A stretch of 64,000 nucleotides of DNA from Nostoc sp. HK-01 (lineage in GTDB: Bacteria > Cyanobacteriota > Cyanobacteriia > Cyanobacteriales > Nostocaceae): positions 3,785,501 to 3,849,500 of the forward strand of contig AP018318.1 in assembly GCA_003990705.1 (NCBI GenBank). The letters are read 5' to 3'. Of this stretch, positions 2,852 through 49,518 are shown piece after piece (the stretch's first letter is position 1; each line of letters opens with the position of its first letter). The notes under the pieces were generated by a model, which did not search any database, was not told the origin of the DNA, and saw only the letters and a list, made by a program, of their open reading frames with translations. The position numbers were made by a program, and so were the translations under genes.

Positions 2852-3907
2852 CTAACCAAACTGCTCAATAATACCGCCGCCTAAAACTTTTTCCCCGTCA
2901 TACCAAACCGCTGCTTGTCCAGGAGTAATGCTGAACTGTGGTTCATCAAATACCAAGCGGACGCGGGAATTTTCCAGAGGAATTACTGTTACTGGTACAG
3001 GCTGAGAACGATAGCGGACTTGCACTTCGGCGTGAATGGGGGTGGCTGGTTCAGCGATGGAAACCCAATTTACTCGGCCTACTGTACATTCTGGCTGAGT
3101 TACCTGGGTGCGATCGCCCACCACGACACGATTATTTACAGCATCTAATTCCACCACATACAATGGTTCCGCTGCCGCAATTCCCAAACCTTTGCGCTGA
3201 CCAATTGTGTAATGATGTACACCATCATGCTGTCCCAAAACTTTGCCTGTTGTATCCACAATATCGCCTTGTTTGGGAGCGAGATACTTATCTAAAAATG
3301 CCCGCATGGAACCGTTGCTTTCCACTAAGCAGAGGTCTTGACTTTCGGGCTTATCGGCGGTTTTCAAATTATATTCAGCCGCAATCCGGCGGGTATCTGC
3401 TTTTTCCATTTCTCCCAAGGGAAATACAGAAGCTGCGAGTAAATCTTGAGACAAATCATACAAAAAATAAGACTGGTCTTTGTTGCGGTCAGCTGCCCTT
3501 AATAATTGATAACGATTAGTTGCTTCATCATAGCCAATTCGGGCATAATGACCTGTAGCAATGCGATCGCATCCCAATTGTTCACGGGCATATTCCACCA
3601 TTGGGCCAAACTTCACCGTTTTATTACACTGCGAACAAGGCAACGGTGTAATGCCGATACTGTAACCAGATACTAAATAATCAACAATATTTGTCTGAAA
3701 GACATCCCGAATATCGACAACTTCATGGGGTATCCCCAGTTGTTCGCAAATATCAGCCGCGTCGATCATTCCTTCAGAGCAACATTGCCCTTTGCCTTTC
3801 ATTAGCCAAAGGGTTAAACCAATCACTTCATAGCCCTGATTATGCAGGATAGCAGCAGCGACAGAACTGTCAACGCCACCGGAAAGACCAACGACAACTT
3901 TTTTCAT
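2852..3907 (-). CDS. mnmA: tRNA-specific 2-thiouridylase MnmA
   Basis: Catalyses ATP-dependent 2-thiolation of the wobble uridine (s2U34) of tRNAs for Lys, Glu and Gln in the cytoplasm. The 351-aa length is normal. The PP-loop is SGGVDSS at residues 9-15. The two catalytic cysteines are visible: C94 in the CSQCNK motif and C193 in the SQDLC motif. The C-terminal beta-barrel with the IGQRKGLG and [10 protein letters not shown] motifs is complete. The ATG at 3907 immediately precedes the PP-loop strand, so the start is secure. It is transcribed away from the SPOR-like gene and appears monocistronic. Confidence 0.97.
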
Positions 3908-23158: not shown

Positions 23159-26077
23159 ATGTCTGAAACTTCTACTTCTCTAACCACAACACGCCCGACG
23201 TTCATCTTAGTTGATGGACATTCTTTAGCATTTCGTTCTTACTTCGCTTTCGCCAAAGGAAGAGATGGCGGACTGCGGACTAAAACAGGGATACCAACGA
23301 GTGTCTGCTTTGGTTTTCTCAAATCTTTGTTGGAAGTCATGGCGACCCAACAACCACAAGCAATGGCTGTGGCCTTTGATTTGGGTTTACCAACTTTCCG
23401 CCACGAAGCTGACGATACTTACAAAGCCGACCGTCCAGGAACACCAGAAGATTTTGTGCCTGATTTGCAAAATTTACAAGAGTTACTCGACGGTTTAAAC
23501 CTGAAGATTTTTACTGCGCCTGGTTACGAAGCGGATGATGTGTTGGGAACGTTATCACAAAAGGCCACGGCTGCTGGATATAAAGTGAAAATTTTAACAG
23601 GCGATCGCGATTTATTTCAATTAATTGATCCAGACAAAGAAATTACCGTTTTAAACTTTAGTCCCGATGCTCTAAAACGCGCTACAAATAGTATTACCGA
23701 ATTTAGTACCGCCCAAGTTAAAGAAAAATTAGGCGTATTACCTACACAAATTGTCGATTTTAAAGCTCTGTGTGGTGATAAATCAGATAACATTCCTGGA
23801 GTCAGGGGAATAGGCGAAAAAACCGCAGTTCAGTTGCTGAGTACTTATGGTTCTTTGGAGAAGATTTACGCTGCACTCGCTGAGATTAAAGGTGCAACTC
23901 AGAAAAAACTCATCGAAGGTGAAGAAGATGCTAAAAAGTCGCAATATTTAGCCCAAATAGTCACAGAGGTTCCCCTAGAAGTTAACTTAGAAAACTGCAA
24001 ATTAACTGGATTTGATACAACTGTTCTCACTCCTATTTTAGAGAAACTAGAATTCAGTACTTTTTTAAAGAAAATCAACGAACTTCAACAGAAATTTGGT
24101 GGTGTAGTTCCAGAAACTCCCGCAACATCAGCAGCACAAATTACTGATGATGATGATAGTGATTTATCATTTTTTACTGCTGCGGAGACAGCCGCATATC
24201 AACAGCAACCTGTTTCAGAAATTCAACCACAAATTATTAATACCCCAGCCAAACTTACCGAATTGGTAAATTTGCTGCAACAATTTACTGACTCTGCAAC
24301 ACCAGTGGCGTGGGATACAGAAACCAGCGATTTAGAACCACGGGATGCGGCTTTAGTTGGAATTGGTTGTTGTTGGGGAACCCAACCAGATGAATCAGCT
24401 TATATTCCTCTGGCGCATAAAAACGGCGAAAATCTAGATAAAGAAATAGCACTTGCAGCGCTACGTCCAATTTTAGAAAGTGTTGATTATCCTAAAACAT
24501 TTCAAAATGGCAAATTTGACCGCTTAGTTTTTCGCTGTCAAGGAATTAACTTAGCGGGAATTGTTTTTGACCCCATGTTGGCTAGTTATGTTTTGAATCC
24601 AGATACTAGCCATAACTTAACTGATTTGGCTTTACGATATTTAGGTTTATCTATCCAAAATTATGCCGAATTAGTTCCCAAAGGCAAAACCATTGCTGAC
24701 ATAGATATTTTGGCTGTAGCCAATTATTGTTGTTTACAAGTTCATGCAACATGGCAATTAGTACCGAAATTACGCGAAGAACTCGATAAGTTTCCAGCTT
24801 TATCACAACTATTACTCGAAGTAGAACAGCCATTAGAAACAGTTCTCGCAGAGATGGAATATACAGGTGTCAGCATAGATTCTGCTTATCTGCGAGAACT
24901 ATCACAACAGTTAGAAATAGATTTAGCCAAGTTAGAAGCACAAGCAACTGAAATAGCCGGAGAAAAATTTAATTTGGGTTCTCCAAAACAGTTAAGTCAG
25001 ATATTGTTTGAAAAATTAGGATTAAGTACTAAATATTCCCGCAAGATTCAAACTGGCTATTCTACTGATGCAGCGACTTTAGAAAAGCTATTAGAAGTGG
25101 ATCACACTGGGTTTGTTGAGGCAATAATTGAGTACCGTACTTTAGCAAAATTAAAATCTACTTATGTAGATGCGCTACCAGCATTGGTGCGTCCAGATAC
25201 TCATCGGGTGCATACTGATTTTAACCAAGCCGCCACATCAACAGGGCGTTTGTCTTCTTCTAATCCAAATTTGCAAAATATCCCCATTAGAACAGCTTTT
25301 AGTCGCCAAATTCGCAAGGCATTTTTACCAGAAAAAAATTACTTAATGGTAGCGGCTGATTACTCACAAATTGAGTTGAGAATTTTGGCACATTTGAGCC
25401 AAGAACCGTTGTTGGTGCAAGCATATCAGCAAAATGAAGATATTCACACAGTCACGGCTCGATTAGTTTTTGAAAAAGATGATGTTTCCGCAGATGAAAG
25501 AAGAGTAGCAAAAACAATTAACTTTGGCGTAATTTATGGTATGGGTTCGCTTAAATTTTCGCGTTCAACAGGCATAGATAAAAACGTGGCTAACGAATTT
25601 ATTAAGCGATTTAACGAACGTTATGCTCAAGTTTTTGCTTATTTAGAGGGAGTAAAAAAACAAGCGATCGCTCAAGGTTATGTTGAAACAATTCTCGGTC
25701 GTCGGCGTTATTTTGATTTTACTAATAACAGTTTACGCAGGTTAAAAAATAGTAATCTTGAAGATATTGACTTGAGTAAATTAAAAAATTTAGGCCCTTT
25801 TGATGCTGGGTTACTCCGTTCGGCTGCCAATGCACCCATTCAAGGCTCTAGCGCTGATATTATTAAAATCGCAATGGTGAGATTGCATGAAATTTTAAAA
25901 CAATATCAGGCACGTTTATTATTACAAGTTCACGATGAATTAGTGTTTGAAGTTCCCCCTCACGAATGGTCAGAATTGCAACCGCAAATTAAATCAGTTA
26001 TGGAAGGTGCAGTGTCTTTGAGTGTGCCGTTACTGGTGGATGTGCGTGCGGGGGATAATTGGATGGAGACAAAGTAA
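23159..26077 (+). CDS. polA: DNA polymerase I
   Basis: Repair and Okazaki-fragment-processing polymerase, 972 aa. The N-terminal 5' nuclease domain (about 10-310) shows VDGHSLAFRSYF and the acidic GYEADDVLG and DKSDNIPG motifs. The 3'-5' exonuclease domain retains DTETSD with Asp386 and Glu388, so proofreading is probably active. The polymerase domain carries motif A (ADYSQIELRILAHLS), motif B (KTINFGVIYGM) and motif C (VHDELVFEVP). The ATG at 23159 gives the expected N-terminus. A rho-independent terminator follows at 26094-26128. Confidence 0.98.
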   Translation: MSETSTSLTTTRPTFILVDGHSLAFRSYFAFAKGRDGGLRTKTGIPTSVCFGFLKSLLEVMATQQPQAMAVAFDLGLPTFRHEADDTYKADRPGTPEDFVPDLQNLQELLDGLNLKIFTAPGYEADDVLGTLSQKATAAGYKVKILTGDRDLFQLIDPDKEITVLNFSPDALKRATNSITEFSTAQVKEKLGVLPTQIVDFKALCGDKSDNIPGVRGIGEKTAVQLLSTYGSLEKIYAALAEIKGATQKKLIEGEEDAKKSQYLAQIVTEVPLEVNLENCKLTGFDTTVLTPILEKLEFSTFLKKINELQQKFGGVVPETPATSAAQITDDDDSDLSFFTAAETAAYQQQPVSEIQPQIINTPAKLTELVNLLQQFTDSATPVAWDTETSDLEPRDAALVGIGCCWGTQPDESAYIPLAHKNGENLDKEIALAALRPILESVDYPKTFQNGKFDRLVFRCQGINLAGIVFDPMLASYVLNPDTSHNLTDLALRYLGLSIQNYAELVPKGKTIADIDILAVANYCCLQVHATWQLVPKLREELDKFPALSQLLLEVEQPLETVLAEMEYTGVSIDSAYLRELSQQLEIDLAKLEAQATEIAGEKFNLGSPKQLSQILFEKLGLSTKYSRKIQTGYSTDAATLEKLLEVDHTGFVEAIIEYRTLAKLKSTYVDALPALVRPDTHRVHTDFNQAATSTGRLSSSNPNLQNIPIRTAFSRQIRKAFLPEKNYLMVAADYSQIELRILAHLSQEPLLVQAYQQNEDIHTVTARLVFEKDDVSADERRVAKTINFGVIYGMGSLKFSRSTGIDKNVANEFIKRFNERYAQVFAYLEGVKKQAIAQGYVETILGRRRYFDFTNNSLRRLKNSNLEDIDLSKLKNLGPFDAGLLRSAANAPIQGSSADIIKIAMVRLHEILKQYQARLLLQVHDELVFEVPPHEWSELQPQIKSVMEGAVSLSVPLLVDVRAGDNWMETK

Positions 26078-26093: not shown

Positions 26094-26128
26094 GAGGGGA
26101 AGCAGAATGTATTCCCCTCTGCTTTTTT
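26094..26128. terminator. polA terminator
   Basis: Stem GAGGGGAA (26094-26101) with TTCCCCTC (26112-26119), 10-nt loop, followed by TGCTTTTTT. Works for polA; as the genes are convergent it probably once also served the gene now ending at 26804. Confidence 0.8.
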
Positions 26129-26153
26129 AACGCAGGCGACAGAATTTGCGATC
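26127..26153. repeat. 27-bp direct repeat, left copy (att-like)
   Basis: Perfectly identical to 26804-26830. Read on the minus strand it is the last eight codons plus stop of the GHL10 gene (DRKFCRLR-stop), here stranded next to the polA terminator with no gene attached. Confidence 0.95.
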
Positions 26154-26160
26154 ACTGAAA

Positions 26161-26442
26161 TTATCCCAACAAACGCTTTAACTTTTTGTAGACATCATCA
26201 TCATTGCGTTTACCCACTAAAATTATTTCTACTAAATCTTCTTCAGGAAAAAAACGATAAACAATGCGATATTCGCCACTATCAACTCGATAATAACCTT
26301 GATAGCCAGATAACTGCTGACTATCAGCAGGTAAAGGCTCAATATTCAAAGCCAATACTTTTTTCGCAATCTGCGCTGCTATTTTTGGCTGCAAACCATT
26401 CAAAAAATCTAGAACAGTTCCTAAACCATCAAGCCTCGCCAT
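26161..26442 (-). CDS. RelE/ParE-family toxin
   Basis: A 93-aa basic protein of the RelE/ParE fold: N-terminal helices (LDFLNGLQPKIAAQIAKKV), then DSGEYRIVYRF and a VGKRNDDDVYK C-terminus typical of RelE mRNA interferases. It overlaps the upstream antitoxin-type gene by 14 bp, a normal toxin-antitoxin arrangement. Both genes lie between perfect 27-bp direct repeats, so the module appears to have been inserted. mRNA-cleaving activity is inferred from the family. Confidence 0.85.
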   Translation of the reverse strand: MARLDGLGTVLDFLNGLQPKIAAQIAKKVLALNIEPLPADSQQLSGYQGYYRVDSGEYRIVYRFFPEEDLVEIILVGKRNDDDVYKKLKRLLG

Positions 26443-26722
26443 TCGCTAAACGCTCCAGTGCAGATGTAAAATTCTCAGTACCAACCATTGTTGATTGATT
26501 CAGAGCTACTTCAGCCGCTTGACCTAATAGCATATCCTCCAATTCATTCACTCGATTAATTAATTCTTGATAATTTTCTGATGACACCAATATTGGTTCT
26601 GCTGCTGTGAGGTGTTCAATTGCGTATGCAAACAATTCTGACAAGTCACAATGATGGGACTGTGCTAAGGCAAGTGCTTTTTCTAGGGTTTTAGTATCAA
26701 GTTGCAGTTCGACTTTTTCCAT
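26429..26722 (-). CDS. Antitoxin of the RelE-type module
   Basis: A 97-aa acidic protein, first in the operon and overlapping the toxin by 14 bp. It has a helical N-terminus (VELQLDTKTLEKALALAQSHH), a central helix with LINRVNELEDMLLGQAAE, and a C-terminal tail ending SALERLANGEA that is likely to wrap the toxin. No clear ribbon-helix-helix or HTH motif was seen, so DNA binding is uncertain. ATG at 26722; autoregulated expression from a promoter in 26723-26800 is expected. Confidence 0.75.
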   Translation of the reverse strand: MEKVELQLDTKTLEKALALAQSHHCDLSELFAYAIEHLTAAEPILVSSENYQELINRVNELEDMLLGQAAEVALNQSTMVGTENFTSALERLANGEA

Positions 26723-26803
26723 GCAGGCTGATGTAGAAGTGTTGATGCTAGGGTGATTCTAGCATCTGGGATAGTTGACGATCTTTGTGCGTCAGTTCTG
26801 TGA

Positions 26804-26830
26804 TTAACGCAGGCGACAGAATTTGCGATC
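26804..26830. repeat. 27-bp direct repeat, right copy (3' end of GHL10 gene)
   Basis: Identical to 26127-26153. It begins exactly at the stop codon TAA and extends eight codons into the gene, so the toxin-antitoxin insertion leaves the protein intact. Confidence 0.95.
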
Positions 26831-28303
26831 GCTATCATTTTCAGGATACTGCCAAGAATAAGCAAAATGGCTGACTCCCGCTAGTTGAGGCGCAAATTTG
26901 CGTAATGCTTGCATTTGGGCTTCTAGTGATGGGCGAGTGGTGGTTGATTGTCCCCAAGCCCCTGCCAAGGCGGGAATAATTTGTGTCCCTGGTTTTGCCG
27001 CACTGATCACCCGTTGCACTTGGTTTGTAATACAACTAACATCACTGCAAACTGCATAGGCCATAGCGTGCCACTGCAAGTTACTGGGAAATCTATCCCA
27101 AGGTTGCAAGCGGGAATCATAACCTTGTCCCACCATTTGATTACCATCTGGGAAAAATACCACTCCCGATGGAATGCCTACTTGCTGTGCTGGATAACTG
27201 GCTAAAGCGACAAAATCTAAGATGCCTTGCATAGCGTGGGCAACCATCAATTGCCAGAGTTCAACTTGCAAAGTTGGTTGTCTGTCGGCAGCTGGTAAAA
27301 GTGACTTTTGCTGTGGTGGCGGAGTCCTACCTTGCCACATCGGTTCCCCTTCTTGGGGATAAAGTTTATCGACTTGATCGATATCTGCTACGGTGACGTA
27401 TCCCTTCATAAGGAACCGCCGCATCAAATCTAACCCTTTATTATTCAACGCCCGACGAAATAAAGCTTCTTGCGTAGCTGGGGTAAATAGCCATAAATCA
27501 GTGACTTTTGTCGCAATTGAATCAGTACCGGTTTGTCTGGGATAACGCACATAATCAAATAGCAAACCATCTGGTCGACGACGTAGCACTTGCTGCACCA
27601 TCTGGAAGTAATCGCGTTTGGCCTGCATGTTGTAGGGGTCAATAAATACTTGGGAACTGTTTTCTACAACATATAAGCTGGTTTGTCCTTTACCATTCCG
27701 AGCGATCGCTGGTTCTCGATCTGCACGTTGGGCATAGGTATAGCCAAAATTGGTAGTAAACATCCAAGAATAAACCTTTAATCCCCGTTCCCGCCCTTTT
27801 TGAATGGCGATGGAGAGTAAATCAATCTTTTCTGTTCCAGGTGTACGCACTACAGAAGGCCAAGCTGTGGGGTTATCGGCTGCGGGTAGTAGTACTTGCC
27901 CATCATAAAAGGTTTCTATATAAATTTGGTTATAGCCACGATTGACCATGCGATCCATAATTTGGTCAATTAACCCTGGTTGAATGTCACAGGGATAAAG
28001 ACGCAACCAAACAGCTTGAATTTTTGGCCAATTACGACTGCGACATTCTTTTAAATCTTGGGCGTGTTGGCGTATTAATTGCTGGTAGCGGCTTTGAGCA
28101 TCGCGATCGCCTTTTAGTGCCAACAAACGTAATTTTTCTTTTGTTTGCGCTGCTGTGGTCGATAACAGGCAATCTTGTTTGACTTGCGCTTGTACTGGTT
28201 GGCTGATCAAGTTAGGCATTAACAGGCTACTGCTAAAAATCACAGCGAACAAGCGTTGCCAGAATAATTTTGCTTTGAAATGTTTTGCGGGACGGTGAGA
28301 CAT
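26804..28303 (-). CDS. GHL10-type glycosidase-like secreted protein
   Basis: Exported glycoside-hydrolase-like family 10 protein. ATG at 28303 is preferred over an upstream GTG at 28330 and gives 499 aa. A signal peptide (hydrophobic AVIFSSSLLMPNLIS, cleavage after PVQAQ) leads into a TIM-barrel domain: WLRLYPCDIQPGLIDQIMD, YNQIYIETFYDGQ, GLKVYSWMF, and LLFDYVRYPR near the likely catalytic acids. Natural substrate unknown. Its final eight codons and stop are part of a perfect 27-bp repeat whose second copy lies 677 bp away beyond the toxin-antitoxin genes. Confidence 0.85.
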   Translation of the reverse strand: MSHRPAKHFKAKLFWQRLFAVIFSSSLLMPNLISQPVQAQVKQDCLLSTTAAQTKEKLRLLALKGDRDAQSRYQQLIRQHAQDLKECRSRNWPKIQAVWLRLYPCDIQPGLIDQIMDRMVNRGYNQIYIETFYDGQVLLPAADNPTAWPSVVRTPGTEKIDLLSIAIQKGRERGLKVYSWMFTTNFGYTYAQRADREPAIARNGKGQTSLYVVENSSQVFIDPYNMQAKRDYFQMVQQVLRRRPDGLLFDYVRYPRQTGTDSIATKVTDLWLFTPATQEALFRRALNNKGLDLMRRFLMKGYVTVADIDQVDKLYPQEGEPMWQGRTPPPQQKSLLPAADRQPTLQVELWQLMVAHAMQGILDFVALASYPAQQVGIPSGVVFFPDGNQMVGQGYDSRLQPWDRFPSNLQWHAMAYAVCSDVSCITNQVQRVISAAKPGTQIIPALAGAWGQSTTTRPSLEAQMQALRKFAPQLAGVSHFAYSWQYPENDSDRKFCRLR

Positions 28304-28530
28304 ACCTGCAAGGTAGATGTACAAATTCACAGGAATTGGGTATTAGTGTGTATCAATTGTTATAGTCGAAAAATAAGGGCTTGGAAGCCTAATTTGGAAG
28401 ACTGCCAAAACCCCATTACTGTTGCTAGATTTTTTTTAGGTTCTTCTATTCAGCAATGCCGTAATATCCACAGGTATTTCTCAGAGGTAAAATTTTAAAC
28501 TCAGATATAACTTGGTAAAAATAAATAAAT

Positions 28531-30313: not shown

Positions 30314-31374
30314 AATTAATAGCTAAAACTTATAAAAATACTTTTGACTGTTGTGCTGGCTGTTGGTTTAAGTCTATAGCTTTTATTAAGCCCTATTTCG
30401 TTGCCTCTGGGGATTAAATTTTTTATCATTAAAAATCTCAGCTTAATTACTTAAGAAAATTTGCTAATCGTAAAATTACTTATCATTACTAATTTTATGG
30501 CTTTTAGGCAAAAATTCAGTAGATTTACGGAAACGATTTATGGGTTCTTCAGGTAGACTCTATTAACTCCTGAGTTATTACCTACTTAGTTTTACATAGT
30601 AGTATTAATTCTGTAATTACCTAATCTTTGCACCTACTCGTTAGGTGCATTTGTTTTCTCAGTGATTTACTGATACCAGCCCCATAAGTCTGAGGGATGC
30701 AGGGGAAAAATCACAGGGTTAGGGAAGGGTACAGGTTTTGATAAAGCTGCGATCGCAGTTGCTAATATCTGGAATTTTTGGATGTATTTTAAACTGAGTT
30801 AGCGCTTCACTGATATAAAATAAGCAAACTTAAATTTACAAATCAAGTCAAAATAGCAATAATTTAACTTATACATGGTGCAGCTATGAAAGTTTTGTTG
30901 GGATTGCAATCACAATTAAAAACTGAAAATTAGAGAATTGCTTTTTTAAAGTTTTCAGTAAATTTTATTTTAAAAAAGTTCACAATACTCATCTATGACA
31001 ACCACCGTTAAATGAGCATTTTTTGCCAAATGCCTCAGCATTTGTCATGCTACATCTATTCCCCTACACATATAGTAGAATTTTATATTTTCATTCTTTA
31101 GCTCATCGTATCCGGAAAGTTACAGAAGCAGTTTAAGTATAACGCAATAACAGAAGTTGTTGGCAAATTGGCATGACAACTTTTACTATTACAGTTTTTA
31201 ATTTAGTAATATTTTGATTAACTTCTATTGAAGCAGGAGATTTGGCGACTACATAGAACGCTGGGTTCAACCTTAAACTTATCTAGCGTGATATGGAAGT
31301 GAAATAAGCACGTTTTTTATTGATTTATTTAGCAAATTATATAAATCAACTTCAGCCCAATAACTTTTTTAAGT
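30314..31374. other. Long AT-rich intergenic region with a gene relic
   Basis: About 1.06 kb with no intact gene. It contains a decayed copy (30749-30933) of a junction found downstream at 34018-34184, and a CAAATGC/GCATTTG hairpin near 31027-31045. The rest is AT-rich sequence without recognised signals; the promoter for the glycosyltransferase at 31375 must be in its right part. Confidence 0.7.
30749..30933 (+). pseudogene. Relic of a GT2-GtrA gene end and the next gene's start
   Basis: Homologous to 34018-34184 at roughly 85-90% identity by eye and without gaps over the first ~140 bp. Residues IWNFW..FKLS, then a TAG where the intact gene has Trp, then the native stop (30821-30823). The 62-bp spacer to an ATG (30886) is the same length as between the intact genes, and the ATG opens a frame that starts MKVLLG and stops after 15 codons. 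Most differences are A here versus G in the intact copy. Confidence 0.85.
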
Positions 31375-32778
31375 ATGTTGACAAAAGCTATTCCTCAAAA
31401 AATATTTGTTACTGTTTTTATCTTGATTGCTCTCCATGTAACACCAGATGGCGCTCAAAACGCTCGTTACACTGATGCCATTCAATCACTTGTTGATTTT
31501 GGCACCTTTGCACTTCAGCCAGGATATCGTTCTCATATTGATATCCTACAAGTTAAAGACCATTTTTATGCCGTAATTCCGCCTGGAGTACCGATTTTAT
31601 TGTCGCCTTTATATTTTATTTATCGAAATTTAATGAATTCCCTAGGTGTTCCTGTAAGTGAATCTTATTGGGCTGGGTTTACCATGCTTTCTAATATTAC
31701 TATCATGGCTCCTTTGTTGGGAATTGTAGCTGTAATGATGTTTAAAATACTCAAAAGTTTTACAGGAGACCTGATTAAAAAACTGTGGTTAGTGTTTATT
31801 TTTATCTTTGGTTCTTTAAATTTCTTTTATTCAACTAACGGGATTTGGAGTCATGCCTATACAATGTCATTTATTTTTATAGCTTTTTACCTTATTGTTA
31901 AGCAAAAAAATAGTTTTTTAATTGGTTTATGTCTCGGCATGGCTCAAATGCTTGATTATATTGCCATATTGCCAATCTTTCTTTTATTAGGTTTTTGGTT
32001 GTATGTAAATCTGAAAAATAAATCAAAAAATATTTTTCAAAAAATAATTTTAATTGGTTGTGGATATTCAATATTTTTAGCTATTATTCTGTACTATAAT
32101 TATTCAATTACAGGTTCAATATTTACAACACCTAATTCACTTTTCTTTAAGCAATTAAGTCAAGCTAAAGAAGGTAAAAATTTAGCTCACGCCTTTTTTA
32201 AATTGCCTACGCTTGAAATTTTATGGGGATTAACATTTAGCCCTTATAGAGGAATTTTTCTCTATTTTCCTATGACATTTCTTTTTGTTATCTCTTTACT
32301 AAAAAATAAAACTATAAAAAACAGCGTATGTTTATTTTCGGGGATATTTGTTTTATGTGTATTAATTTATAATTCTACTTACTATGCCTGGTCTGGTGAT
32401 GTCTGCTTTGGCCCCCGGCATTTAGTAGTTGCTACACCGTTTATTGTTATTCCAATTGTGTATTGTAAAACTAAATATATTAAAATATTAGGAACTTTAT
32501 CAATTTTCATCAATCTAGCCGGAGTATCAACCAACCCATCTGATAATTTATTGACAAATTTAGTGATGTTTATTTCCAGAGGACTATTTCTCCACTGGCT
32601 AGATTATGGATATAAAACTATATTGCCCACATATTTTAATGTTCATGTTTCTCTAATGACACCTTTCTTTATTTACCTGGCAATTTTTAGTTTAATTTAC
32701 ATAATTTGGCAACCACTAATTAAAGAGTACCAAGTAACCCAAAGTCTAAACATGCAAGAAAAGCTACAACAGTATTAA
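31375..32778 (+). CDS. Polytopic membrane glycosyltransferase-like protein (GT-C)
   Basis: A 467-aa membrane protein with about ten hydrophobic helices. An early luminal loop with TPDGAQNARYTDAIQSLVD and a VIPPGVPILLSPLY motif recalls GT-C enzymes that use polyprenyl-phosphate sugars, but no family signature is decisive. The gene is visibly more AT-rich than its neighbours, with long A/T runs, and sits between a duplicated junction relic and the GT2 gene, which suggests later insertion. It probably works with the two following genes on envelope glycan or lipid glycosylation. Confidence 0.65.
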   Translation: MLTKAIPQKIFVTVFILIALHVTPDGAQNARYTDAIQSLVDFGTFALQPGYRSHIDILQVKDHFYAVIPPGVPILLSPLYFIYRNLMNSLGVPVSESYWAGFTMLSNITIMAPLLGIVAVMMFKILKSFTGDLIKKLWLVFIFIFGSLNFFYSTNGIWSHAYTMSFIFIAFYLIVKQKNSFLIGLCLGMAQMLDYIAILPIFLLLGFWLYVNLKNKSKNIFQKIILIGCGYSIFLAIILYYNYSITGSIFTTPNSLFFKQLSQAKEGKNLAHAFFKLPTLEILWGLTFSPYRGIFLYFPMTFLFVISLLKNKTIKNSVCLFSGIFVLCVLIYNSTYYAWSGDVCFGPRHLVVATPFIVIPIVYCKTKYIKILGTLSIFINLAGVSTNPSDNLLTNLVMFISRGLFLHWLDYGYKTILPTYFNVHVSLMTPFFIYLAIFSLIYIIWQPLIKEYQVTQSLNMQEKLQQY

Positions 32779-32856: not shown

Positions 32857-34092
32857 ATGAGAAATAACCAAAATAATACATTATTAACAGTGCCATCTGG
32901 CAATTTACAGATTCCAGAATTTCCGCCTCAGAATGTAACAACAGACAAGACAAATATTTATTTCTCTCTAATAATTCCCACTTATAAAGAGCGTGACAAC
33001 ATCGCCAAGGTCATCAAGATTCTATGCGAACTGATAGAGGAATTTATCTCAGAAGATTACGAGCTAATTGTGGTAGATGATGATAGTCCAGACCGCACTT
33101 GGGAAGTAGCGCAATCAATGATGGCAGAATATCCTAACTTGCGGGTGATGCGTCGCCAACAAGAACGGGGATTATCTTCAGCAGTTATCCGCGGGTGGCA
33201 AGCTGCTAGGGGGAGTGTTTTAGGCGTAATTGATGGAGATTTACAACACCCGCCAGAAGTGTTGGCGCAGCTGTTACGTGGTATTGCACAGGGCGCAGAT
33301 TTGGCTGTGGCGAGTCGTCATATAGAAGGTGGCGGTGTCAGCAGTTGGAGTGCTGTCAGACGTTTTTTGTCTCGTGGCGCTCAAGTGTTGGGTTTGATTT
33401 TCTTACCTGGGGTATTAGGGAGAGTTTCTGACCCGATGAGTGGTTATTTTATGGTGCGTCGGAGTTGTATTGCAGGTGTAACGCTTAATCCTGTAGGCTA
33501 CAAAATTCTCCTAGAGGTGATTGGACGGGGAAATGTAGGAGAAATCGCAGAGGTTGGTTATGTATTCTGCGAGCGCCAAGAAGGTGAAAGCAAAGTGACA
33601 TGGAAACAATATATAGAATACTTACATCACTTATTGCGCTTACGGCTAACTACAAAACAGGTGGGACAAAAATCTTCTTTTCCCATTAGTCGATTTCTCC
33701 GCTTTGGCTTGGTCGGACTAAGTGGGGTATTTGTGGATATGGCAATACTTTATCTACTTAGCGACCCAACGACTTTAGCTTTACCCCTAACACGTAGTAA
33801 AATTATTGCTGGTGAAATTGCAGTTTTTAATAATTTTTTGTGGAATGATGCTTGGACATTTGCTGATGTGAGTCAGAGACAGCAAGAATGGCATCATCGT
33901 CTGAAGCGGTTTTTGAAATTTAATCTTGTTTGCTTGGCAGGATTGGGAATAAATGTGTTGGTGTTAAATTTAGTGTTTAATTTTGTGATTCCCAATCGTT
34001 ATATTGCTAACTTAATTGCGATCGCAGTTGCGACTGTCTGGAATTTTTGGGTGAATTTAAAACTGAGTTGGCGCGTCACTGATGTGAAATAA
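32857..34092 (+). CDS. DPM1-like GT2 glycosyltransferase fused to GtrA
   Basis: A 411-aa fusion. The N-terminal GT-A domain (about 35-265) has FSLIIPTYKERDNI, the nucleotide-sugar motif VVDDDSPDRTW and the metal/acceptor motif DGDLQHPPE, typical of polyprenyl-phosphate mannose/glucose synthases. The C-terminal GtrA-like domain (about 280-405, four helices) is thought to move the charged polyprenyl-phosphate sugar across the membrane. Probable product: a polyprenyl-phosphate hexose used by the neighbouring membrane transferases. The next gene starts 62 bp later. A broken copy of the 3' end lies at 30749. Confidence 0.9.
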   Translation: MRNNQNNTLLTVPSGNLQIPEFPPQNVTTDKTNIYFSLIIPTYKERDNIAKVIKILCELIEEFISEDYELIVVDDDSPDRTWEVAQSMMAEYPNLRVMRRQQERGLSSAVIRGWQAARGSVLGVIDGDLQHPPEVLAQLLRGIAQGADLAVASRHIEGGGVSSWSAVRRFLSRGAQVLGLIFLPGVLGRVSDPMSGYFMVRRSCIAGVTLNPVGYKILLEVIGRGNVGEIAEVGYVFCERQEGESKVTWKQYIEYLHHLLRLRLTTKQVGQKSSFPISRFLRFGLVGLSGVFVDMAILYLLSDPTTLALPLTRSKIIAGEIAVFNNFLWNDAWTFADVSQRQQEWHHRLKRFLKFNLVCLAGLGINVLVLNLVFNFVIPNRYIANLIAIAVATVWNFWVNLKLSWRVTDVK

Positions 34093-34154
34093 GCGAACTT
34101 AAATTTACAAATCAAGTCAAAATAGCAATGAGTTGACTTGTAAATGGCGCGGCT

Positions 34155-35942
34155 ATGAAAGTTTTTTTTGGGAGTGCATCAAAATTTTACAAACATATTA
34201 TCCTGTTTTTCTCTGCCTTTGCTAACCATCGCGTGCCTTTAGCAGACGAAACTTCTCCCTCAAACCCGATAGCGGGGAATTGGCATTTTGTGACCAATAG
34301 TCGCTGGTTTCATCCTTTGCTGTTATTGCTGTGGTTGATGATTGGTCTGGGTTTGCGTTTAACTAATTTAACAGCCAAACCCCCTTGGACTGATGAATTT
34401 TCGACTTTAGTGTTTAGCTTGGGGAATAGTTTTTTACCAGTACCCTTAGACCAAGCGATCGCACCTGATATTTTATTACAACCATTGCAACCCCAAGCAA
34501 GTGATACTATCCAAGATGTTTGGGCGCACTTGAGCCATGAAACCAATCATCCGCCACTGTATTTTTTCTTAGCTCACTGGTGGATGCAGTTATTTCCGAC
34601 ACAACAAGGTCTAGTTTCATTATGGGGCGCGCGATCGCTCTCGGCAATTTTTGGTGCTGCATCAATTCCCGCCATCTATGGTTTAGGCTGGCTAACTTTT
34701 CGTTCTCGCTTGATTGCACATATCGCTGCTGCCATCATGGCGGTATCACCTTACGCTATCTTTCTCGCACAAGAAGCGCGTCATTACACTTTGGCAATTT
34801 TGTGGGTAATTGCATCTTTTGCTTGCTTAATTATCGCTACGCGCCACATCCAAAATCGGACACAATTACCCATCACCACAGCACTAGCTTGGGTAGTTAT
34901 TAATGCTTTCGGGATTGCAACCCATTACTTTTTTGTTCTTACCCTTGGTAGTGAAGCCTTAGTTTTAATTTTCCTCGCTTGGCGACAAAGTAATTTTACA
35001 TCTCCACCGTGGCGGCGGATTTATGCGGTTGCTGCTGGTACTGCTGTCTCAGGAATAGTTTGGGTACCAATATTTTTACAGAATAATTATGGTGATAAAT
35101 TAACAGATTGGATACAACAACCGCGCCAAGGATTTGAATGGTTAAACCCATTTTTTCAGGCTTTTGCAGCTTGGGTAACAATGCTTTTCTTGCTCCCCAT
35201 CGAATCACCACAGTTAGCAATTATTTTAATTTCTGGGCTGGTGATGTTGATTTTCTTTATTTGGTTTTTACCAATATTTATCCGCGGCATCAAAGTTCAA
35301 TTACAACGACCAGAAACTCAGGTTTTATGGGGAATTATTTTAGCGGCGATCTCTTTATTTTTTGTCTTTACTTATTTTTTAGGAATTGATTTAACTAGAG
35401 GCGCTCGTTATAACTTTGTGTATTTTCCCGCCGTCATTCTTTTACTTGGGGCAAGTTTAGCAGTTCGTTGGCAAACTCAGGAGAAAAATTATAAAATCAC
35501 AGGCAAACAAGCTTTAGCAATAATTTGGCTCATGGGATTTTGTAGCGCAGTAACTGTGATTTGTAATTTAGGCTATCAAAAATACTATCGCCCTGATTTA
35601 TTTTTACAACTTATCAGACAAACATCTCAAGTTCCAGTCGTGATTGCAACTACTCAAATTACCCATGTTCAAATGGGTGAAATGATGGGTATTGCTAGAG
35701 AGTGGAAAATTCAAAATACGCCATCAGCATCACTCCAGTTTGTCCTTGCACATCAAGACCAAGACCCGAATACTTCTACAAATACCCTCAATAATATTTT
35801 AAAAAACCTACCAAAACCCTTTGATTTGTGGTTAGTAAATTTCCGCGCACCCACAGCAGCAGAAACAGAAAAATGTCTTGCTGAAACTAAATCTCTACCA
35901 GCAGTCAACGGCTACGAGTACAAAATTTATCATTGTCAATAG
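34155..35942 (+). CDS. GT39/PMT-type membrane glycosyltransferase
   Basis: A 595-aa integral membrane protein with about 11-13 helices and a large extracytoplasmic loop. The first-loop motif PPWTDEFSTLVFSLG contains the Asp-Glu pair expected of GT-C catalytic centres; HETNHPPLYFFLAHWWMQL is a typical RgtA/PMT acceptor-loop block. It probably transfers a sugar from the polyprenyl-phosphate donor made by the preceding gene. The ATG at 34155 is plausible, since the relic at 30886 preserves the same start context. Confidence 0.85.
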   Translation: MKVFFGSASKFYKHIILFFSAFANHRVPLADETSPSNPIAGNWHFVTNSRWFHPLLLLLWLMIGLGLRLTNLTAKPPWTDEFSTLVFSLGNSFLPVPLDQAIAPDILLQPLQPQASDTIQDVWAHLSHETNHPPLYFFLAHWWMQLFPTQQGLVSLWGARSLSAIFGAASIPAIYGLGWLTFRSRLIAHIAAAIMAVSPYAIFLAQEARHYTLAILWVIASFACLIIATRHIQNRTQLPITTALAWVVINAFGIATHYFFVLTLGSEALVLIFLAWRQSNFTSPPWRRIYAVAAGTAVSGIVWVPIFLQNNYGDKLTDWIQQPRQGFEWLNPFFQAFAAWVTMLFLLPIESPQLAIILISGLVMLIFFIWFLPIFIRGIKVQLQRPETQVLWGIILAAISLFFVFTYFLGIDLTRGARYNFVYFPAVILLLGASLAVRWQTQEKNYKITGKQALAIIWLMGFCSAVTVICNLGYQKYYRPDLFLQLIRQTSQVPVVIATTQITHVQMGEMMGIAREWKIQNTPSASLQFVLAHQDQDPNTSTNTLNNILKNLPKPFDLWLVNFRAPTAAETEKCLAETKSLPAVNGYEYKIYHCQ

Positions 35943-49253: not shown

Positions 49254-49505
49254 GAAGTTTCGAGTTCTGAGGTTGAAGTTCCAAGTTCAAAGGTCGAAGT
49301 TTCGAGTTCTGAGGTTGAAGTTTCGAGTTCTGAGGTTGAAGTTCCAAGTTCAAAGGTCAAAGTTTCGAGTTCTGAGGTTGAAGTTCCAAGTTCAAAGGTC
49401 GAAGTTTTGAGTTCTGAAGTCGAAGTTTCGAGTTCTGAGGTTGAAGTTCCAAGTTCAAAGGTCGAAGTTTCGAGTTCTGAGGTTGAAGTTCCAAGTTCAA
49501 AGGTC
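49254..49505. repeat. 21-bp minisatellite, 12 units of two alternating types
   Basis: Exactly 12 units of 21 bp in the order B A B B A B A B B A B A, where A contains TTCCAAGTTCAAAGGTC and B contains TTTCGAGTTCTGAGGTT, all starting GAAG or AAAG. Few point changes occur. All frames stay open, yielding SELETSTFELGTST-type artefacts on the minus strand. Unit A matches the 2315-2419 array unit at about 12 of 21 positions at the same phase. Confidence 0.95.
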
Positions 49506-49518
49506 GAAACCATAATAT

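Follow-up and report, generated by a model that had tools for sequence, protein, structure and literature searches.

How does a small toxin-antitoxin (TA) pair come to lie between polA and the GHL10 gene of Nostoc sp. HK-01, fenced by two identical copies of the 3' end of the latter gene, which is itself intact? An earlier note on this DNA, of which a stretch of 64,000 bp (the window) was analysed, had explained the arrangement by site-specific integration of a minimal, possibly trans-mobilised addiction cassette into the gene end. Here, the locus is compared with 217 genomes of the family and with other loci of the same TA family.

The repeat and the enclosed unit

The window contains a perfect 27-bp direct repeat (same strand, spacing 677 bp, no mismatch; Table 1), for which a chance origin is rejected, since none of 100 shuffles of the window yielded a match to the 27-mer at up to three mismatches. 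On the minus strand, the right copy reads GAT CGC AAA TTC TGT CGC CTG CGT TAA (DRKFCRLR plus stop) and represents the exact end of the GHL10 open reading frame. Coordinates and identity of the two copies bracketing the RelE-type pair are thereby confirmed, as is the assignment of the right copy in the earlier note to the last eight codons and stop codon of GHL10. The left copy, regarded there as an orphaned gene end beside the polA terminator, indeed follows polA and a hairpin with T-run, a context similar to that of the GHL10 stop in two relatives (G003, G004). Thus, the duplication of the GHL10 end is real.

Table 1. Features of the polA-GHL10 locus in the window (positions refer to the window)
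Feature	Positions	Strand	Basis
polA (DNA polymerase I), left neighbour	23159..26077	+	ORF; TIGR00593 3e-300
Hairpin and T-run leading into left copy	26094..26126 (about)	+	Sequence; loop 26102-26111 inverted in Nostoc sp. LEGE 06077
Left (orphan) copy of GHL10 3' end	26127..26153		Sequence comparison; 30 bp with full HIP1 site in Nostoc sp. LEGE 06077
RelE/ParE-type toxin gene, 93 aa	26161..26442	-	ORF; Pfam PF05016 ParE_toxin; E. coli RelE chains
Antitoxin gene, 97 aa, overlapping toxin start	26429..26722	-	ORF
Inverted repeat GATGCTAGGGTGATTCTAGCATC upstream of antitoxin	26744..26766		By eye from sequence; probable operator
Right copy, last eight codons and stop of GHL10 gene	26804..26830		ORF and repeat comparison
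GHL10 gene, intact, right neighbour	26804..28330	-	ORF; Pfam GHL10

In Nostoc sp. LEGE 06077 (G007), the repeat comprises 30 bp (TTAACG...GCGATCGCT) and ends in a complete HIP1 site (GCGATCGC). The base just past the 27-mer is G in both copies of this strain and in the right copy of the window, whereas an A at this position renders the HIP1 site of the window's left copy incomplete. In its original form, the repeat therefore probably spanned 30 bp or more. It starts at the stop codon, where similarity of the gene ends begins, and ends at HIP1 (HIP1 plus T in LEGE 06077), a site found 61 times in the 64-kb window versus 0.36 expected occurrences.

At up to two mismatches, the 27-mer is present in 9 of the 217 family genomes and doubled only in HK-01 and LEGE 06077; apart from the one additional copy in each of these two strains, its sites are all GHL10 3' ends. 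Likewise, among the 34 polA-GHL10 intervals of at least 60 bp (7 gaps under 60 bp left out), a copy of the genome's own GHL10 end is confined to HK-01 (27 bp) and LEGE 06077 (30 bp), and never exceeds 13 bp in the other 32. The 27-bp repeat is therefore not shared throughout the family, nor does it seem, from these genomes, to be an attachment site of general use. An arrangement common to all relatives, which according to the earlier note would have spoken for simple gene duplication, is not observed.

The open reading frames between the copies are those of toxin and antitoxin as well as part of a 60-aa frame overlapping GHL10, and nothing else. An integrase-sized frame is absent from the 677-bp unit, as already noticed in the earlier note, and the unit's neighbours are polA and GHL10. 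On the basis of its sequence, the toxin is assigned to the RelE/ParE superfamily (ParE_toxin, PF05016, 6.6e-07, 30.3 bits over a cut-off of 23; closest solved chain E. coli RelE, 8.4e-05). For the antitoxin, no Pfam match was obtained at a threshold of 0.001, DUF6364 being matched below threshold only; antitoxin matches, some of them weak or partial, occur in 119 of the 217 genomes, and GHL10 matches, a few of them weak, in 214. The inverted repeat GATGCTAGGGTGATTCTAGCATC probably represents the operator of the TA pair, and a similar half of it (GGTGATTCTAGCAT or GCTGATTCTAGCAT) is found in G201, G204, G208 and G210.

The polA-GHL10 junction as a hotspot for small cargo

In many Nostocaceae, polA and GHL10 are convergent neighbours. 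Among the matches listed for the 217 genomes, at least 41 such junctions (convergent, less than about 9 kb wide) in 40 genomes were examined, the stop codons being separated by as little as 1 bp (G098 to G101) and by as much as 8170 bp (G203). Their content varies: 11 genomes carry a gene which we take to be alpha/beta hydrolase-like, four genomes congeneric with HK-01 share a conserved small-gene pair, and two contain, by our own reading of the sequence, a different RelE/ParE-like pair; further cargo types are also present. Hence, the junction is a hotspot that repeatedly gains and loses small cargo.

Junctions under 100 bp account for 10 of the 41, all of them in other genera. The near-empty sites that the earlier note proposed to look for thus exist, but not in the same genus: of ten same-genus relatives, LEGE 06077 has the same arrangement, six have other cargo, and in three polA and GHL10 are unlinked in the assembly, so that no junction free of cargo was found among these ten.

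The sequence contexts of the GHL10 stop were compared in twelve relatives, drawn from the genus of HK-01 or the nearest one listed. The context of the right copy, TGATTA(A/G)CG ahead of the stop, recurs in G001, G005, G006, G010, G012 and G013, and that of the left copy, a terminator T-run directly adjoining the stop, in G003 and G004. Neither type is seen in G002, G008 and G009, and LEGE 06077 displays both. Thus, both flanks of the repeat resemble native GHL10 3' contexts and look like two alleles joined.

Possible relics of the TA pair are found at the same place in two further species. The interval of G009 contains, in the same orientation, a 37-bp match (95 % identity) to the toxin end and the adjacent TTGCAG, with no copy of the GHL10 end over 10 bp. 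In G005, a weak and short match of 21 bp (one mismatch) to the toxin start lies about 29 bp from the GHL10 stop on the same strand, polA not being adjacent in this assembly. These matches suggest that the TA pair once resided here in other species without the left copy.

Recent sharing between HK-01 and LEGE 06077

The TA genes of HK-01 and LEGE 06077 differ by 2 synonymous changes at about 127 sites (none in the toxin, two in the antitoxin), corresponding to a synonymous divergence (dS, calculated with our own Nei-Gojobori script) near 0.016. By contrast, dS amounts to 0.375 for polA, 0.255 for GHL10 and 0.363 for an upstream gene, presumably sensor-kinase-like. From this difference (near 0.016 versus 0.25-0.38 in the flanks), the cassette is judged to have been shared recently between the two species. 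Among 376 overlapping 650-bp windows of the aligned segments, divergence is lowest in those that cover the cassette. Horizontal sharing of the module is thus supported, whereas the site-specific integration and trans-mobilisation considered in the earlier note are not supported.

The tract of low divergence is bounded by differences at positions 26053 and 26849 and takes in the 49-bp spacer between polA and the repeat. The sole difference in this spacer is the hairpin loop, which by eye is inverted in LEGE 06077 and carries two changes. Since two independent insertions of the cassette should have left the spacer diverged, homologous recombination that exchanged the intergenic allele as a whole provides a better fit than two site-specific insertions. 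In part, the low divergence of the spacer may also reflect constraint on the hairpin stems and the T-run.

All five changes between the two toxin genes are nonsynonymous, too few to judge selection. Across genera, the toxin is under purifying selection, with more synonymous than nonsynonymous change per site (for example, 25 versus 9 changes in comparison to Nostoc sp. CMAA1605).

Proposed origin of the duplicated gene end

Based on the features of the junctions, we consider it somewhat better than an even bet that the repeat is the scar of a recombination event joining two alleles of the polA-GHL10 spot, which is also the least complicated account. One allele would have been nearly empty (polA, terminator, GHL10 end), the other would have carried the TA pair adjoining the GHL10 gene; either of the two could have been the recipient. 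One end of the exchange would have been homologous, within GHL10 or polA, and the other illegitimate, most likely at the 9-bp HIP1 motif GCGATCGCT within the GHL10 end. Such an exchange would yield, in this order, polA, the terminator, the GHL10 end as far as HIP1, the TA pair and the complete GHL10 gene, so that the target is duplicated and the gene kept whole. This allele would later have passed between the two species by ordinary homologous recombination. The putative addictive character of the TA pair may favour its retention, and excision between the copies would give back the empty junction without a scar.

The limits of the repeat in LEGE 06077 (stop codon on one side, HIP1 plus T on the other) are both as predicted for such an allele hybrid, and GCGATCGCT at this one junction is a candidate microhomology. 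Because HIP1 is so common, its presence there could also be due to chance. A donor allele with an intact TA pair beside GHL10 and no left copy was not found among the junctions examined. The repeat probably has one origin in the two genomes that carry it, and the exact event is thus seen without replicate. The repeat, the hotspot, the near-empty junctions of other genera, the recent sharing and its boundaries are observed; the joining step, its direction, the role of HIP1 and addiction are what we infer.

A related process, homology-facilitated illegitimate recombination, is described for competent bacteria (PMC3240628), mostly with microhomologies of 3-10 bp and with deletion; three of four illegitimate junctions in that description are without microhomology. 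The Nostoc locus would likewise combine one homologous and one illegitimate end; unlike it, the products described there carry deletions, and the Nostoc case is deduced from a single junction without a visible donor. The same source attributes the duplications seen in 56 of 60 clones to single crossing-over with a circle that had been shortened; the gene ends duplicated in this way measured 109-950 bp. By analogy, a single crossover with a shortened circle is another possible route to the duplicated GHL10 end.

Repeats at other loci of the toxin-antitoxin family

Instead of by the joining of alleles, the TA pair could have inserted as an addiction module by a mechanism of its own, duplicating its target, here the GHL10 end, over a long and variable stretch, a mode of insertion proposed for restriction-modification systems. 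We regard this as possible yet rather improbable. It draws on bracketing repeats around related toxin genes: exact repeats of at least 30 bp occur at 5 of 57 toxin loci (LEGE 06077 included) versus none of 1114 control placements at the same loci, and imperfect repeats of at least 35 bits at 11 of 58 loci versus 9 of 534 placements. The loci, 62 in number, were reduced to 59 by manual removal of L237, L245 and L247, and by a length rule to 57 (exact) and 58 (imperfect). A toxin match was obtained for 92 of 93 sequences; L237, the top row there, was an artefact of a toxin located near the locus start.

The first of these comparisons initially hinted at bracketing repeats being special to this TA family, a view weakened by inspection of the loci. 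Eight of them have repeats of at least 17 bp. Four (L226, L227, L229, L242) have a common antitoxin type and HIP1-rich repeat surroundings, L236 contains a duplicated antitoxin-like sequence and L233 a dispersed repeat; L204 is the LEGE 06077 locus, and L194 is described below. Moreover, repeats of at least 25 bp are found around other small genes at 1 of 30 PF05016 loci and 1 of 30 DUF29 loci, in a rough comparison using best-scoring rather than random loci and assuming the match to lie mid-locus. These results thus do not demonstrate that the tendency is peculiar to this TA family.

Also in favour of insertion by the pair's own mechanism is L194 of Anabaena lutea FACHB-196 (G015), where a TA pair lies between a DUF29-type gene (named after PF01724 hits at related places) and a gene whose 3' part is present as a 139-bp copy of 87 % identity on the other side of the pair. 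The duplicated neighbour is a 507-aa frame which we assume to encode an NAD(P)HX epimerase/dehydratase. In G017 and G195, the distance between these neighbours is 116 and 142 bp, respectively, and the gene end is present once. Judged from these sequences, L194 represents a real parallel, i.e., a second scar in the same TA family in another genus. Against a process tied to the TA pair, however, G167 and G175 possess, at this locus, about 17-18 bp of the orphan end of this gene, followed by other cargo.

Several further repeats were noticed alongside. At L216, a TA pair of the same family lies between two 73-bp palindromic, MITE-like copies of 85 % identity (2522-2594 and 3312-3384). At L309 of HK-01 (C1, near 4972758 and 4973626), a TA-like pair lies between perfect 36-bp direct repeats (1110-1145 and 1978-2013); G003 has both repeats too, with 4 and 3 mismatches to the 36-mer, but they enclose other sequence. 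Five other TA-like loci of HK-01 have no comparable repeat above 14 bp.

The window itself harbours a second direct repeat (30748-30917 and 34017-34186; 171 aligned bp, 87 % identity, exact 34-bp core). Its right copy comprises the 3' end of gene 32857-34092, presumably glycosyltransferase-like, and following sequence, its left copy being an orphan that adjoins an extra frame of 467 aa (31375-32778). The corresponding site of G002 measures 82 bp as against about 2.1 kb in the window, which suggests a further insertion accompanied by duplication of a gene end. In addition, positions 49254-49508 contain short tandem repeats that include exact runs of 45 and 69 bp.

Other explanations

An origin within the genome, by break repair or template switching that placed a 30-bp copy of the GHL10 end between polA and an already resident TA pair, would yield the same product, and the relics in G009 and G005 suggest such an older residence. 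However, a simple 30-bp patch would not bring along the terminator context that precedes the left copy and resembles the native ends of G003 and G004, making this explanation unlikely.

The site-specific integration favoured by the earlier note, with an integrase acting in trans on the GHL10 3' end and the copies as attL and attR, accords with the perfect 27-bp identity at the 3' end of a restored gene and with the recent sharing of the cassette. However, the unit contains no integrase-sized frame, and the reuse of the 27-mer expected in the earlier note was not borne out, since neither the 217 genomes (at up to two mismatches) nor the 32 other intervals contain it beside any other cargo. Furthermore, the shared tract is unbounded by the repeat on its left, running beyond it, and seven relatives of the TA pair located elsewhere (G201, G204, G208, G210, G116, G165, G006) have no flanking direct repeat over 12 bp. 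A dedicated site-specific integrase is thus unsupported and its involvement very improbable.

Transposition by an insertion-sequence enzyme in trans with a long target duplication would account for a short unit bracketed by a direct repeat, but is the least probable of the readings considered and scarcely credible: inverted repeats at the unit ends are not above chance (45 and 59 of 500 shuffles as good), so that transposon or MITE ends are rejected, the unit's DNA has one match in its own genome, itself, and DNA homology to the seven copies elsewhere, reaching the operator region in four of them, breaks off on one side at the toxin stop or close to it, the outer ends not being shared. Carriage by plasmids (searched with DNA), phages or viral contigs (both searched with the toxin protein) was likewise dismissed, no match being found in sets from which records near the window genome may be absent.

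Comparison with known systems

The recombination scar proposed here is, by analogy, closest to insertion with long target duplication (Nobusato et al. 2000; Furuta et al. 2010), which is described for restriction-modification systems in PMC3874152, PMC1643837, PMC3154945 and PMC3031569. In these descriptions, too, direct copies of a host sequence, varying in length, flank a small selfish module, and the sequence is single where the module is absent. At the Nostoc locus, the module lies between copies of 27 bp (HK-01) and 30 bp (LEGE 06077), and the target is single-copy where the module is absent (at most 13 bp in 32 intervals, 27-mer doubled in 2 of 217 genomes). It differs in that the module is a RelE/ParE-type TA pair rather than a restriction-modification system, in that the duplication measures 27-30 bp versus the order of 100 bp in the restriction-modification description, and in that it coincides with a gene end and a HIP1 site, unlike that description; at the Anabaena lutea locus, the duplicated part measures 139 bp. 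On these grounds, the Nostoc case appears to belong to this kind, with an unusually legible scar.

In Microcystis aeruginosa PCC 7806, a RelE/ParE-type TA pair is fenced by identical direct repeats of 152 bp (PMC7935541), likewise a cyanobacterial type II pair between identical direct repeats. In contrast to the Nostoc copies, those repeats start 14 bp past a stop codon, hold inverted repeats and are, in the description given there, not presented as a gene end. For enterobacteria, the TA insertion loci relA-mazG and folA-apaH are reported to be plastic, the mechanism of integration being stated as unelucidated (PMC7167474). These resemble the polA-GHL10 junction as fixed intergenic spots with cargo differing among strains, but the Nostoc locus, in cyanobacteria, has a visible insertion scar compared with what is described for them. 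Integrase-dependent genomic islands differ by an integrase gene, absent in and beside the Nostoc unit, and by reuse of the att site, and transposons or MITEs with target duplication by their terminal inverted repeats. Among the titles and abstract openings listed in a literature search, none describes this polA-GHL10 TA locus.

Implications for the integration of toxin-antitoxin pairs

The locus combines a TA pair with a readable insertion scar and recent sharing between species; related junctions are near-empty or hold other cargo, and the TA family offers a second scar in another genus. The question of how TA pairs integrate thereby becomes testable. Taken as a single case, it may be an ordinary outcome of recombination at a variable spot. 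As a tentative and rather doubtful generalization, one may speculate that small cargo of Nostocaceae, TA pairs included, enters by recurrent recombinase-free duplicative insertion at gene 3' ends, aided by short abundant motifs such as HIP1 and leaving the host gene whole. If true, such insertion would explain the integration of TA pairs in general.
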